From NCBI GenBank assembly GCA_007376205.1, contig VMFU01000008.1:1-56914 (forward strand): a DNA stretch of 56,914 bases, given 5' to 3'. The position numbers and the translations under genes were made by a program. Position 1 is the first letter of the stretch, and every line of letters begins with the position of its first letter. The notes beneath the pieces were generated by a model, which did no database searches, was not told the DNA's origin, and worked only from the letters and a program-made list of their open reading frames with translations. Shown here piece by piece: positions 37,272 to 55,671 of this stretch. This stretch comes from Candidatus Peregrinibacteria bacterium Gr01-1014_25 (lineage in GTDB: Bacteria; Patescibacteriota; Gracilibacteria; Peribacterales; Peribacteraceae).

Positions 37272-37302
37272 AAAAAAACTCCTCGGGACGCATCCCGAGG
37301 AG
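37272..37302 (-). terminator. Intrinsic terminator of the small membrane protein gene at 37313
   Basis: A 10-bp stem, CTCCTCGGGA / TCCCGAGGAG, with a CGCA loop, followed on the minus strand by seven T (37278-37272). Confidence 0.9.
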
Positions 37303-37312
37303 GTCGGAGCAC

Positions 37313-37546
37313 CTACGATTGTTTGATATAGATGGCTACATGGATGATGATCGCGATCACAAGTAGCACAACTGCGACAAGATTCACGAGGGTGGCGACA
37401 AGGAAGCCACTGATTCCCCCTGAATACCAATGAACGTCGGCACCCGCTGCTGTTTTCTGCAAACTGCGCAATGTGTAGCAGCCGAAACCAAAGGAGACGA
37501 CGACGGTCAACAACCACAGCCACCAATAGGTCGCGATGAAATGCAT
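37313..37546 (-). CDS. Small two-span membrane protein, unknown function
   Basis: 77 aa. Hydrophobic helices at about 6-27 and 47-72, joined by a short polar loop (SLQKTAAGADVHWYSGG). No family recognised. It has a Shine-Dalgarno AAAGGA (37559-37554), 7 nt before the ATG, a promoter TTGACA-N17-TTCAAT, a stem-loop in its leader and a strong terminator. This is the second small membrane protein in the window with a complete leadered unit, in contrast to the many leaderless genes. Confidence 0.7.
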   Translation of the reverse strand: MHFIATYWWLWLLTVVVSFGFGCYTLRSLQKTAAGADVHWYSGGISGFLVATLVNLVAVVLLVIAIIIHVAIYIKQS

Positions 37547-37683: not shown

Positions 37684-38658
37684 TCACACCGCAAACGTCC
37701 ACAATCCCAGCAGTTCCGACAGCACGAAGGCGAGGAAGAGGGCGAGGAGGATCGCGCCTTCTTTCCGCGAAAGTTCGCCGCCCGAACGCGCGAAGCGAAA
37801 GAAGAGGAGCAGGCCCACGACGGTGACGGCGAAGCTGGGGATGAATTGCTGGCTTGTGAGCAGGAACGGCCCGTTCACGAGGGGCAACAGGCCGAAGATG
37901 AGCGTGTTCGCGGCGCTCGATCCCATGTAATCCCCGAAGGCGATGTCCGTCCGCTTGCCCAGCACGCACCGCAGGGCGATGACGAGCTCCGGAACGTTCG
38001 TGCCGATGGAGAGGAAGAGGAGGCCGACGAGCGACGGCGGCGTGCCGATGGTCTCGGCGAAGAGCAGGGATTCCTGAACCAGGAGATGTCCCGCGAGGAA
38101 GATCAGCACGCCTCCCGCAATGATTTTCAGGATGTCGATGACGTGCGCGTGCCTCGTGTGCACGATTTCTTCTTCGACCTCTTCGACGGTTCGCCGCGCT
38201 GTCGTCTCCGTGGGACGTCGGGATTGGATGGAGAAGACGAGGAGCAGATAGAGGAAGACGAGCGTCAGGCCCTCGCTGCGGCTCACGGAGCCGTCGAGCA
38301 CGATGACGGTGGGCAGTGCGACAGTGCCGAGCAGGAACGCCATGTTCTCCCGCGTCATCGACAATTTCATGGGAATGCCGCGGCCCAACACCGCGAGGAG
38401 CGGGATGATGAGCAGCAGGATGACCAGTGACGCGCCGATGAGGTTGCCCGCGGAAATTTGCGGAACGCCCTCGATGCTTGCGTTCGCAGCGACGGAGATC
38501 TCACTGATGGACGTGAGGAATCCCAGGATCAGGAACGCCGTCGTGAAACCCGACCGGCGGTAACGGCGGGCAACCCGGTCCGTCGCCTCGACAATGAGAC
38601 CGGAGAGGTACCAGATGACTCCGATCGATAGCGCGAAAACGGGGATGTGGGAGAGCAT
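37684..38658 (-). CDS. CaCA-family cation exchanger (Na+/Ca2+-type)
   Basis: 324 aa, about ten membrane helices. The two inverted alpha repeats are visible: GFLTSISEISVAANASIEG near 50-70 and SIGTNVPELVIALRCVLGK near 222-240, each with the acidic residue after a Ser/Thr-rich turn, plus GNLIGASL and DYMGSSAANTLIFG. It moves Ca2+ or a related cation against Na+ or H+. Last gene of a four-gene unit. Start 38658 is 1 nt after the upstream stop; ATG 38673 would overlap it. Confidence 0.88.
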   Translation of the reverse strand: MLSHIPVFALSIGVIWYLSGLIVEATDRVARRYRRSGFTTAFLILGFLTSISEISVAANASIEGVPQISAGNLIGASLVILLLIIPLLAVLGRGIPMKLSMTRENMAFLLGTVALPTVIVLDGSVSRSEGLTLVFLYLLLVFSIQSRRPTETTARRTVEEVEEEIVHTRHAHVIDILKIIAGGVLIFLAGHLLVQESLLFAETIGTPPSLVGLLFLSIGTNVPELVIALRCVLGKRTDIAFGDYMGSSAANTLIFGLLPLVNGPFLLTSQQFIPSFAVTVVGLLLFFRFARSGGELSRKEGAILLALFLAFVLSELLGLWTFAV

Positions 38659-38659
38659 G

Positions 38660-39484
38660 CTAGGCGCGAGCATACCGGCGCTGCATGAACCAGACGATCC
38701 CCACTGCGGCGATGGCGAAAATGCCGAGGCCCATGCCCGAACCCGGCTGGGATGCGGGACGCGTGGTTTGCGAGAGGAGGGGAGGCGTGCCCGGCGCTTT
38801 GCCCGCGTACGGGTTGACGGGAATGTGCGTCCGCACGGTCTGTGCGGCGAGCGGACTGGTCGTCGGTGCGGCCTGCGTGGGCGAGGGAACGGTGGTCAGG
38901 GGAGTGGTGGGGGGCGTGGTCGGAGGTGCCGTGGGCGGCGTTGCGGGAGGCTCGCCGCTCGGTGGAGTGAGCGGGGGGATCGGTTCCTCCGGTGCGGGAG
39001 CGCCGCTGCCTATGACGATCGTACCGTCGTGCGCGGGCGACGTGCGCGAGATATAGGAATAGGTTCCCTCGGATGCATCCGCGGCGATGGTCATGGAGAA
39101 CGTCTGGCCGGGGAAGATCGGGGTCGATTCCAGCGTCATGCCCTCGCTGGTCGGCAGCGTCTCCGAGGCGAGGACGTGCGGAATCGCGTCGCTGTTCATC
39201 CACGTCAGCGTCTGTCCCGGCGCGGCGAGAACCGTCGCGGGGAGGAATCCCTCGGCGGTGATCGTCACGTCGGTCTGGCCGCCTGTCTGCGCGGTGAAGT
39301 TCAGGTCGGGCTGCACGACCAAGAGGCCGAGGAGGAGCACGACGGCGATGCCGGTGACGGCTGCAGGACGGCGCGAGATCGCGGAGAGCGGTACGGCGCT
39401 GCGAGGTGCGTAGGTGTTCTGCTGTACCGTGGAGAGCGGCGCATCGTCTTCCGTTTCTTGCCATTGGGGTCGGATGACGCTCAT
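38660..39484 (-). CDS. Membrane-anchored cupredoxin-like protein lacking the copper cysteine
   Basis: 274 aa. N-terminal membrane helix (about 43-62), a cupredoxin/plastocyanin-like domain (about 70-165), a Pro/Thr linker (about 170-240) and a C-terminal hydrophobic helix with a basic end (GLGIFAIAAVGIVWFMQRR). The domain keeps WMNSDAIPHVLAS (His ligand), but the second half reads YSYISRTSPAHDGTIVI, where blue-copper proteins have H-C-x-x-H: the Cys is replaced by Ser. Copper binding in the usual way is therefore unlikely. The start ATG overlaps the upstream stop (ATGA), so it is cotranscribed with the cohesin gene. Confidence 0.65.
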   Translation of the reverse strand: MSVIRPQWQETEDDAPLSTVQQNTYAPRSAVPLSAISRRPAAVTGIAVVLLLGLLVVQPDLNFTAQTGGQTDVTITAEGFLPATVLAAPGQTLTWMNSDAIPHVLASETLPTSEGMTLESTPIFPGQTFSMTIAADASEGTYSYISRTSPAHDGTIVIGSGAPAPEEPIPPLTPPSGEPPATPPTAPPTTPPTTPLTTVPSPTQAAPTTSPLAAQTVRTHIPVNPYAGKAPGTPPLLSQTTRPASQPGSGMGLGIFAIAAVGIVWFMQRRYARA

Positions 39485-40800
39485 GGGCGTGCGGGGAGGG
39501 CGACGAGCTGGCGTCGGAAGGCGATAGCGGTTCCGATCACGGCGCAGGCGACGAGGAAGACAAGCCAGACGGCGGGGAGACCCGCATCGCCGGCGACACC
39601 GTCACCCGTGGCCGGGCGGGGCGGGGCGATCGCGCTCGCCGAGAGCGGAGATGTCGACGTCAGCGGCTTGCCGACGGTGACCGCCACTTCGGGGCCGAAG
39701 TCCGTTTCCTGCCCCCGCACGTTCACGCCGCGGATGGCGACGTAGTACGTCTGATTCTCCGGAAGCGCGCGGATGACGACTGATTGCTGGTCGCCGGGAA
39801 CGCTCTTGCGCTGGATGTAGCGGCCCGAGACTCTGCTGTAGTACACGTAGTATCCGGCGATTTCCGAGGAGGGTAGCTGGTCCCACGCGGCGAAAATGCT
39901 GCCGCCGAGCGTCGTGACCCGCAGATTCTGGACCTGGAGGGATCCGAACAGGCCGCCCACCGGCGCTTGAGGGGCGTCCGAGGGAGTTGTCGCCGCCGCC
40001 ATGTCTGATGCGGACGACGAAGACACCGTTTCGGACGGCGCCGACGCGGTCTGACCGCCGGTCGCGATGGCGGACGAGGACGATTCCTCAACCGGCGCGG
40101 ACGATTCTTCGGCGGTGTCTGCGCCTGCCTCGCTTGCGGGCGGCTGCTCCGCCTGCGCGTTTTTGATGATGATGTTGAGCCAGGACGGCGGTGCCGAGAG
40201 CCCCTCCACTCCTGCGCCATCACCGGTGCCCACTGTTACGCTCGTTGTTCCATCGACGAGAAACGCGAGGGCGGTGTTCTGGGATGCGTCCTCCGCGATG
40301 CGCACCTGGATGCGGGCGACGACCACCGTCGTCGAGCGCACGGACGAGGAAGCGGCGACGTCGATCTTGATGTAGCCGTCCTCCGGAACGAAGTCGCTCT
40401 CTTCCGGCGACGGTTGGTCAAAGTTGGAATCGAAGGTGAGCGATTCGCCGGACAAAATCGTCGGATCGTAGGAAAGCCATGCCCGCACGCGGCTGATCGG
40501 CAGCGTGCCCGGGTTGCGGACAACCAGATCCATGTCGAGCAGGTCACCCGGGGAGAGCGTCGGCGTGTACTGCTCCTCCGGACTTTGGACGAGGAAGCGG
40601 CCGCAACGTCCGCCGTCCGTCGGCGTCATCGTGCCTTCGATATCGGGAACCGGGCCGCCGAAGACGGACTCCTGTTCCTCGGATTCGCAGTGCGGCCGCA
40701 GCTCGAGAGCGGCGGTAGCCTGTGCTCCTGCTGACGGCAGGACGAAGAGAGACGCGGTGACGCTCCCCGCAAGAACGGCGGAGAGGAAACGGGAGCGCAT
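39481..40800 (-). CDS. Surface protein with cohesin-like and fibronectin III domains
   Basis: 439 aa from ATG 40800. Signal peptide at 1-26 (cut after AQA). Residues about 70-185 look like a cohesin: LSPGDLLDMDLVVRNPGTLP, RAWLSYDPTILSG and the later VVARIQVRIAEDAS strand. A Ser/Ala-rich linker follows. An FN3 domain spans about 285-375 (IFAAWDQLPSSEIAGYYVYY; YYVAIRGVNVRGQE). The C-terminus has RPATGD, then a membrane helix (about 405-425) and RRQ, like a sortase sorting signal. It sits 16 nt after a dockerin gene. The frame upstream of 40800 overlaps that gene and is not used. Confidence 0.7.
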   Translation of the reverse strand: MRSRFLSAVLAGSVTASLFVLPSAGAQATAALELRPHCESEEQESVFGGPVPDIEGTMTPTDGGRCGRFLVQSPEEQYTPTLSPGDLLDMDLVVRNPGTLPISRVRAWLSYDPTILSGESLTFDSNFDQPSPEESDFVPEDGYIKIDVAASSSVRSTTVVVARIQVRIAEDASQNTALAFLVDGTTSVTVGTGDGAGVEGLSAPPSWLNIIIKNAQAEQPPASEAGADTAEESSAPVEESSSSAIATGGQTASAPSETVSSSSASDMAAATTPSDAPQAPVGGLFGSLQVQNLRVTTLGGSIFAAWDQLPSSEIAGYYVYYSRVSGRYIQRKSVPGDQQSVVIRALPENQTYYVAIRGVNVRGQETDFGPEVAVTVGKPLTSTSPLSASAIAPPRPATGDGVAGDAGLPAVWLVFLVACAVIGTAIAFRRQLVALPARP

Positions 40801-40816
40801 ACGTATGTTTGTTGGT

Positions 40817-41137
40817 TTAGCGTCCTGCCAGCGTTTGAAGGATGTGCAGTGCGTCATCGATGGTGACGATGCCGTCGCCGTTGGGATCAGCGCGCAGATC
40901 GTTCGGTGTGGGTGTTGCGTATCCATGGACGATTTCCAGGGCGCGGATCGCATCCGCGATGTCCATGACGCCGTTGCCGTCGAAATCGCCGTCGCCCAGA
41001 GCCGTGCCGGCTTCAATCGACGCGATTGTGCGAACGCTCTCCGACGTGCGCAAACCCATGGCGAAGGCCACGCCGACAGTGACCAGGCCCAACGTGGTTA
41101 CCTGGAGGAGCCGGCGGGAGCGGGAATTCATGCGCAT
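40817..41137 (-). CDS. Membrane-anchored dockerin protein
   Basis: 106 aa. N-terminal basic start, then a hydrophobic segment (about 12-28: TTLGLVTVGVAFAMG). The rest is a type I-like dockerin: DGDFDGNGVMDIADAI and ADPNGDGIVTIDDALHIL, two EF-hand-like calcium loops about 33 residues apart, each followed by a helix. Dockerins bind cohesins in calcium-dependent fashion; the next gene encodes a cohesin-like protein. First gene of the four-gene surface operon, with a good promoter, TTGAGA-N17-TACAAT. Confidence 0.82.
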   Translation of the reverse strand: MRMNSRSRRLLQVTTLGLVTVGVAFAMGLRTSESVRTIASIEAGTALGDGDFDGNGVMDIADAIRALEIVHGYATPTPNDLRADPNGDGIVTIDDALHILQTLAGR

Positions 41138-41145
41138 ATCGATGT

Positions 41146-41174
41146 ATTGTACCTTAAAGAGGCTTTTCTCTCAA
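41146..41174 (-). promoter_or_regulatory. Promoter TTGAGA-N17-TACAAT of the dockerin/cohesin operon
   Basis: -35 at 41174-41169 and -10 at 41151-41146; the -10 ends 8 nt before ATG 41137. One of the best promoters in the window. Confidence 0.75.
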
Positions 41175-54302: not shown

Positions 54303-55544
54303 TCAGATCGCCAGCATGTCCATCCGCACCTTGGGTGCATCCGATTTCGTCGTGTGCTGACCGACCGCCAGAGCCTCGCCGGTGAGCAGGTCGACTTCCT
54401 GCGCCTGGACGATGAGGCGGCGGAGCGTCGTTCCGACGGGCGTGCATGTCATCAGCGTGCCCAGGCGCCTGTCCGTCGGCTGATCCAGAACGGAGACGTC
54501 GTTCGGACTGACCTCCTTCACTTCCGTAACGCGGTAGCGGTGCTTGTCGCCGTTGTGGTAGACCCAGTACTCATCGCCAGCTTCCAACTCGCCGAGGCGC
54601 GCGAACACCGTCTTGAAGTCGCCGGGCAAACCCGGGTAGTACGAGCTGTGTCCCGTGACGAAGAAATTGCCGGCCTGTCCCGGGCGGGCCGTTCCCGGAT
54701 AATGCACGACCCCGTCCTCGAGGGACTGCTGGATTTCCGTTTCCAGAGCGGCCCAGTCCTCCCGAAGCAGCGGTTCGCTCGTCGGTGTGACGACGGGAAC
54801 ATTGAGTCCCAGCTTGGGGATCAGGAGACGGTTGTCCGGCGGGCCGACGGTCAGGGCGGCGAGAAGCGTTCCATGAGCGTTGTCGTGGGTGCTCTTGGCA
54901 TTGTCGCTGCCACCGGTGAGGATCCGCGACATGCGATTGGCTTCGTCGACGGAGGCGAGCGGATCGATGCGTGCGCTCACGATGGTCGAGACGCTCTGGT
55001 AGTTGAGCGCGAGAAAGAGGGCAATGAAGAGGCAGGCGAACGTCGTGCCGAAGCGAAGGACATCGCCGAAGAAGAGCGCCAGCCGCGTTCGCTGCTTTGG
55101 CGCTTTGTTCCTGCGGGGGATCCACACGGGCTGCAAGAGGAGATCGCGCCCCTGCGCCATCGCGCCGCGGGCATCCCGCACGAGGCCGCGGGCGAAAGCG
55201 ACCGCGTCGCGCATGCTCCATGCGACTTGCGATCGCGCCTCGGCGGCTGCGTCGGTGGTCAGCGCGTAGACATGGCTGCGGACCGAAGTGGCAACGGCAA
55301 CAGGCTCTTCGTCCACAGTTTTCCAGATGCCGGGGAGCCCTTGCGTAAGGGCAGAAGCCGATGGTGCACGCTTTCTGTCGGCTCCTGTGTGTGCAGTGGG
55401 CATTCGATCACTGTCTCCTTCGTCCATGGAATCTGCCCTCTGTGATTCAGCCCTTTCTGAAGGGCTTTGCGGCATGTCATGTATTGGAAGGCGAATATTG
55501 CCGTCGTCGTCGTACATGGCGCGGTGCTGGCGGTTAGGCTGCAT
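54303..55544 (-). CDS. Sortase (class D/E-like) with long N-terminal cytoplasmic region
   Basis: 413 aa from ATG 55544. Residues 1-165 are polar and probably disordered or helical; a membrane helix lies at about 172-195 (FGTTFACLFIALFLALNY). The extracellular sortase fold contains TGHSSYYPG (catalytic His), LMTCTPVGTTLRRLIVQA (catalytic Cys, Arg) and VVHYPGTARPGQAGN. Sortases cut xPxTG-type signals and join surface proteins to the wall or to each other. The long N-terminus is unusual. A candidate substrate in the window is the cohesin/FN3 protein (RPATG). Confidence 0.88.
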   Translation of the reverse strand: MQPNRQHRAMYDDDGNIRLPIHDMPQSPSERAESQRADSMDEGDSDRMPTAHTGADRKRAPSASALTQGLPGIWKTVDEEPVAVATSVRSHVYALTTDAAAEARSQVAWSMRDAVAFARGLVRDARGAMAQGRDLLLQPVWIPRRNKAPKQRTRLALFFGDVLRFGTTFACLFIALFLALNYQSVSTIVSARIDPLASVDEANRMSRILTGGSDNAKSTHDNAHGTLLAALTVGPPDNRLLIPKLGLNVPVVTPTSEPLLREDWAALETEIQQSLEDGVVHYPGTARPGQAGNFFVTGHSSYYPGLPGDFKTVFARLGELEAGDEYWVYHNGDKHRYRVTEVKEVSPNDVSVLDQPTDRRLGTLMTCTPVGTTLRRLIVQAQEVDLLTGEALAVGQHTTKSDAPKVRMDMLAI

Positions 55545-55556
55545 GGAAATCAGAGC

Positions 55557-55562
55557 AGTATA
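55557..55562 (-). promoter_or_regulatory. -10 box TATACT of the sortase gene
   Basis: Minus strand, 12 nt before ATG 55544. It sits inside the open frame that reaches 55601, so the longer start is rejected. Confidence 0.6.
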
Positions 55563-55671
55563 GCAGAATACATCGTTTTTGGCGATGGGTGAATGCCTCA
55601 TTCACGCAGGGTTCCCTCGCGGCGAAGTCCAAGAATAGATCAAATTTTGTATTCAATAATTTGTCCTTATG

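Follow-up and report, generated by a model that had tools for sequence, protein, structure and literature searches.

Why should a bacterium keep a dockerin gene beside a cohesin gene in an operon without cellulase? Cohesin-dockerin pairs are known mainly as docks for enzymes, and non-cellulosomal pairs are also known. The question arises in the window, the whole stretch of 56,914 nucleotides (61% GC) analyzed here, which belongs to the genome of Candidatus Peregrinibacteria bacterium Gr01-1014_25 (1.12 Mb in 12 contigs, 99.9% complete). Four co-directional and tightly packed genes lie on its minus strand. They encode a membrane-anchored dockerin (DOC), a cohesin-fibronectin type III protein (COH), a cupredoxin-like protein (CUP) and a CaCA exchanger, separated from first to fourth by 16, -4, and -14 nt. 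The relevant features, all on the minus strand, are as follows.

41146..41174, minus: putative promoter, -35 TTGAGA (41174-41169), 17 nt, -10 TACAAT (41151-41146), 8 nt upstream of the dockerin ATG
40817..41137, minus: DOC, membrane-anchored mini-dockerin gene, 106 aa; predicted cytosolic N-terminal tip, transmembrane segment (TM) at residues 10-28, spacer, dockerin
40952..40987, minus: dockerin Ca loop 1, DFDGNGVMDIAD, residues 51-62; ligand pattern in 62 of 69 sequences
40853..40888, minus: dockerin Ca loop 2, DPNGDGIVTIDD, residues 84-95; ligand pattern in 64 of 69 sequences
39481..40800, minus: COH, cohesin-FN3 surface protein gene, 439 aa, ATG at 40800
40255..40554, minus: cohesin domain, residues 83-182; Pfam cohesin 2.1e-5, above cut-off; fold from AlphaFold2 (AF2) and Foldseek
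39697..39936, minus: fibronectin type III (FN3) domain, residues 289-368; Pfam fn3 2e-7, above cut-off
38660..39484, minus: CUP, third gene, 274 aa; start overlaps COH by 4 nt
37684..38673, minus: CaCA cation exchanger, Na_Ca_ex 6.9e-36
37313..37546, minus: 77-aa ORF with two TMs, 3' of the exchanger, of uncertain membership
37279..37302, minus: terminator-like hairpin, 10 pairs followed by T7, a possible transcript end

Domains of the three surface proteins

Taken alone, the window DOC is a weak dockerin, with a Pfam E-value of 0.025 that falls below the cut-off. Its relatives are more telling: 22 of 32 match PF00404 (Dockerin_1) at E ≤0.01 (best 1.4e-8), and the profile of the DOC family matches solved dockerins. 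The sequence carries the two D-x-[DN]-x-[DN]-G-x-x-x-x-x-D loops of a type I dockerin, each followed by a helix. The AF2 model, which averages a pLDDT of 82.9 and reaches about 90 or above in the dockerin part, has one long N-terminal helix ahead of dockerin helices at residues 60-70 and 93-105. In a Foldseek search with this model, roughly the first 30 matches are dockerins, with target-normalized TM scores up to 0.85 and best rmsd of 1.3-2 Å; the modest E-values (best 7.9e-3) reflect the shortness of the domain. On profile and model evidence the DOC dockerin is thus genuine, and an earlier note on this DNA, which had proposed a membrane-anchored dockerin with two Ca-binding loops from the letters alone, is borne out by family profiles, loop conservation and structural matches.

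The cohesin of COH is likewise genuine as judged by domain profiles and the predicted fold. Pfam cohesin is matched by 28 of 34 COH relatives, and the model has the jelly-roll fold of the cohesin family (PF00963). Its top Foldseek match is 2w1n, the cohesin-FN3 module of Clostridium perfringens GH84C, and numerous cellulosomal cohesins come next. From its N-terminus, COH has a signal peptide-like segment, an LRPHC region, the cohesin, a Ser/Ala-rich linker, the FN3 domain, an RPATG-like tail, and, at the C-terminus, a TM and a basic RRQ end. A Pfam-type domain search of COH for a carbohydrate-binding module found none. The description of COH as a cohesin/FN3 surface protein therefore holds, both domains scoring over the Pfam cut-off and Foldseek agreeing.

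CUP begins with a predicted cytosolic segment and a TM (residues 40-58), followed by a cupredoxin-like domain devoid of a copper site, a Pro/Thr linker, a sorting-type tail, a second TM, and RR. The cupredoxin-like match of the window protein (5.7e-5) is under the cut-off; the family profile matches plastocyanin at 4e-10, which supports the fold. The earlier assignment of a cupredoxin-like protein stands in this case as to the fold. A type 1 copper protein with a His-Cys-His(-Met) site was considered and rejected, because the ligand-loop Cys is found in none of the 61 aligned domains. The first copper-ligand His remains in just 37 of 69 rows. The steadiest parts of the family are the N-terminal TM motif SRxPAAxxGI and the C-terminal QPxTGPxxW-TM-RR tail; five relatives lack the cupredoxin-like domain altogether and keep the N-terminal TM.

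The conserved unit and its neighbors

We examined 74 genomes of Peribacteraceae-like CPR bacteria, referred to here as the family. A full or split COH match was found in 72 of them; the two without a match (G031 and G045) reach a completeness of just 75% and 66%. At the 71 loci of relatives, DOC is present in 68, the third gene in 69, and all three in 67, in the same order and on the same strand, so that with the window the order DOC-COH-third gene occurs in 68 of the 72 cohesin-bearing genomes. DOC and COH are at most 68 nt apart and COH and the third gene at most 29 nt, and the unit is flanked at nearly all loci by holA, transcribed away from DOC, and by a nearby greA. The relatives' proteins are about 30-50% identical to those of the window. 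Recurrence of this order is more than chance. The dN/dS values of the three genes, mostly 0.05-0.25, indicate purifying selection, leaving aside one very close pair with too few DOC changes to judge. A -10-like hexamer (TANNNT) lies 8 nt before the DOC start with the same spacing in 57 aligned sequences, and a -10 element ending that close to the start implies a near-leaderless mRNA. Outside the class, a phylum-wide sample showed no protein with the full COH architecture.

The exchanger behaves differently. In the window it is co-directional with the other genes and overlaps gene 3 by 14 nt, and its identity is clear: there are two Na_Ca_ex stretches as in PF01699, with an acidic residue after TSIS/TNVP in both repeats. 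Nevertheless, it is outside the conserved unit. Of the other genomes in the set, 15 have close orthologs (49-56% identity), all at other sites, no CaCA match at 1e-10 was found in 46 of the 74 genomes, and in no relative's locus does a CaCA exchanger adjoin the third gene. Only in the window do all four genes stand together. The earlier note had included the exchanger in the operon and suggested searching CPR genomes for the same four-gene order; the identity and position of the exchanger and the order of the first three genes stood up to that search (67 of 71 loci), whereas membership of the exchanger in the system did not. It had further proposed that the exchanger could tune the Ca2+-dependent cohesin-dockerin bond. 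Direct adjacency in the window genome speaks for this, as does a gene of the divalent metal transporter family VIT1 found after or near gene 3 in 13 relatives. These VIT1 cases may represent one inherited neighborhood, and a single exporter would hardly shift external Ca2+. As no relative carries CaCA at the locus and over half of the genomes lack a match at threshold, calcium tuning is unsupported, and we consider it the most improbable of the readings weighed in this study.

A sortase gene lies farther away in the window.

54303..55601, minus: sortase, 432 aa, with TGHSS, TLMTC, and the Arg of TLRR, about 14 kb from COH

This protein matches PF04203 at 2.7e-26 and shows the fold, catalytic His, TLxTC Cys, and Arg of a sortase, with a score under every class-specific cut-off. 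A sortase is present in 73 of the 74 genomes, and it lies 7.5-17.7 kb from COH in 40 of the 41 genomes, among those listed, that carry both on one contig. In relatives, the tails of COH and the third protein show a motif, then a TM, then basic residues. One simple LPXTG-like pattern is found in 51 of 72 COH tails (mostly VPGETG) and 48 of 69 third-protein tails (mostly QPxTG), and is matched approximately in the window, where the third-protein tail reads QPGSG. The nearby sortase is likely the processing enzyme for both proteins; because the window tails are approximate, we infer this processing.

Pairing of dockerin and cohesin in the envelope

What does DOC bind? A search of the window genome with the DOC profile reveals no second dockerin. 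This profile was used to judge absence because PF00404 alone misses the window's own dockerin. The only other cohesin match, on contig C10, was discarded as a second cohesin, since it is a half-domain within a 619-aa DUF11-like repeat protein. With a single dockerin and a single cohesin to the genome, each is the other's obvious partner. The alternative is that they do not bind each other, COH having some other ligand and DOC, a small membrane protein that binds Ca, serving a different role. Genus g21 (G038, G039) would agree with this, as it keeps COH and the third gene while DOC was not detected anywhere in its genomes. The co-variation of the two proteins is also unspecific. DOC and cohesin-domain distances are correlated beyond three neighbor genes (partial r 0.25, p 0.007), and the correlation of DOC with FN3 is stronger (0.41), which points to a shared history of DOC and COH and not to a docking face. 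In about 95% of genomes DOC and COH are strictly adjacent, and each is the sole member of its kind in the window genome; both facts argue against separate partners, a reading that we hold to be unlikely, if the least unlikely of those set beside mutual binding.

Where the two would meet is suggested by their anchors. A dockerin displayed right above the membrane requires that its partner come to the membrane, and COH does so via its C-terminal TM. The combination favors a complex in cis. We therefore prefer, with a probability of roughly 55%, a reading in which DOC and COH would form a cargo-less, calcium-dependent clip in cis, joining the membrane to surface proteins anchored by sortase. The products of the three genes would be made in one cell and assembled there into a small envelope complex. 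DOC would sit in the membrane as an N-in/C-out stub. The signal peptide would direct COH to export, the C-terminal TM and sorting tail would retain it, and the nearby sortase would probably attach it. Once Ca2+ occupied both loops, the cohesin would bind the dockerin and COH would be clipped to the membrane during or after its handling by sortase. Such a clip could act as a membrane-to-wall strut or as a holding site during sortase processing, the FN3 domain being a spacer or an outward face, and the third protein, with a TM at each end, a further co-made part of the envelope.

The earlier note favored adhesion. In that case COH, with or without DOC, would bind in trans a dockerin, cohesin, or glycan on a host or sibling cell. 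FN3 and cohesin domains are frequent in adhesins, many CPR bacteria are epibionts, and very large Ig-like proteins occur in the operon of some relatives. A dockerin-domain envelope protein is moreover essential in a saccharibacterium (PMC10633639). Against this, only some 20 residues separate the TM of DOC (10-28) from its first Ca loop, so the dockerin would probably reach little past its own membrane-proximal layer, one and the same cell makes both DOC and COH, and COH has no detected carbohydrate-binding module. Adhesion in trans thus fared poorly, and we rate it slightly below even the absence of mutual binding.

The remaining part of that interpretation, a non-cellulosomal and self-contained surface operon without cellulase, is supported, with no enzyme or carbohydrate-binding module in these proteins. 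A cellulosome proper, with a multi-cohesin scaffoldin, dockerin-bearing enzymes, and a carbohydrate-binding module, is rejected. A looser version, in which COH acts as a receptor for dockerin-bearing enzymes, could draw on the extra dockerin proteins of a few relatives (G016, G017, G035, G045); some of these look planctomycete-like at the N-terminus and may stem from contaminated bins. Given no further DOC-profile match in the window genome and no repeated cohesins, enzyme recruitment is very improbable, only a little less so than calcium tuning by the exchanger.

Known systems and a possible origin by reduction

Among the known systems closest to the proposed clip is the C. perfringens pair formed by the cohesin-FN3 of GH84C (NagJ) and the dockerin of NagH (2w1n, 2ozn), likewise non-cellulosomal and with a single cohesin followed by FN3. 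The NagH/NagJ pair 2ozn is also among the structural matches of DOC, as 2w1n is the best of COH. In C. perfringens these modules are appended to glycoside hydrolases, whereas DOC is a bare membrane stub and COH lacks a catalytic domain; DOC and COH also share one conserved operon, unlike the C. perfringens pair. The type I pairs of clostridial cellulosomes resemble DOC and COH in both folds and in the two Ca loops of the dockerin, but the window genome has one dockerin and one cohesin, and no enzymes, repeated cohesins, or carbohydrate-binding module.

Relatives offer a hint of where so small a unit came from. In the divergent or basal genus g15 (G029), a longer operon occupies this holA-greA site. 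It encodes a 569-aa protein that has a TM of the DOC type at its N-terminus and a dockerin at its C-terminus, a 1320-aa Ig-like protein with one dockerin-type loop at its end, a lipoprotein-like cohesin protein of 198 aa, a cohesin-FN3 protein, and the third protein. The Ig proteins with dockerin tips, one of them very large, would there have two cohesin proteins to dock onto. Other families within the class show similar longer arrangements (L112-L121, L124, L131), and reduced or altered ones stand at L122 and L125-L127. The simplest reading of DOC is the 569-aa type without its middle, and the three-gene unit would then be reduced from a larger surface complex, the comparison being unrooted and the direction of change consequently one that we infer. 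That the clip is a dedicated calcium-dependent membrane-to-wall device, core to the Peribacteraceae-like bacteria and derived by loss of a giant dockerin-tipped protein and one cohesin, seems to us a somewhat less than even proposition.

Dockerin and cohesin proteins outside cellulosomes have been described in other lineages, in the survey of Peer et al. (2009), as cited by later papers, and in the giant ORFs of Omnitrophota (PMC10066038). In the related longer operons, too, dockerins or cohesins are borne by large Ig-like or giant proteins; the Peribacteraceae-like pair differs in being syntenic, matched, and core to a whole CPR family. A paper on five complete Peribacteria genomes reports sortase A and S-layer genes and neither cohesin nor dockerin (PMC4736985), and the literature searched, mostly non-subscription, contains no description of a syntenic, cargo-less dockerin-cohesin core operon in a CPR family. 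The saccharibacterial protein mentioned above, SEML1_0315, is like DOC a dockerin-domain protein of a CPR envelope, and differs in that no cohesin partner is named in the passage describing it (PMC10633639). That a dockerin protein is essential in that organism makes the question experimentally approachable. A cargo-less syntenic pair in the core operon of a CPR family would be a case of the cohesin-dockerin module serving as envelope architecture, and its two small domains offer a directly testable handle on how poorly understood, ultra-small bacteria build their surface.

Promoter of the dockerin gene

DOC, the membrane-anchored dockerin gene, is preceded by a conserved promoter:
41138-41174, minus strand, conserved promoter upstream of the DOC ATG
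In most relatives 8 nt lie between the end of the -10 element and this ATG, which implies a near-leaderless mRNA. A conserved GTCAA is found farther upstream and may be the -35 element of the divergent holA promoter.

Additional dockerin proteins and a possible sortase substrate

L182 (G016) and L188 (G060) hold additional dockerin proteins whose N-termini are planctomycete-like (LEPLENRVMLAAD type); these are possibly bin contamination. In the window genome, a 619-aa repeat protein on another contig (L001, G000:C10) has an MPTTG-TM-RRR tail and is a possible further sortase substrate.

Variation of the cohesin gene and operon in relatives

The window cohesin-FN3 protein (COH) lacks the Cys-rich, DUF4215-like linker that separates cohesin from FN3 in many of its relatives (e.g. 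alignment A2). At L123 (G218), TGA codons were the sole breaks in the cohesin and FN3 frames of the search output, and TGA may be read as a residue in this family.

In a longer version of the operon (L129 in G029, L112-L121 and L124), the third gene and two cohesin genes are accompanied by genes for an Ig protein tipped with a dockerin and for a giant Ig-like protein that has a single dockerin-type loop at its end. Genus g21 has retained the cohesin-FN3 and third genes (L093 in G039, L100 in G038), and the dockerin appears to have been lost in both its genomes.
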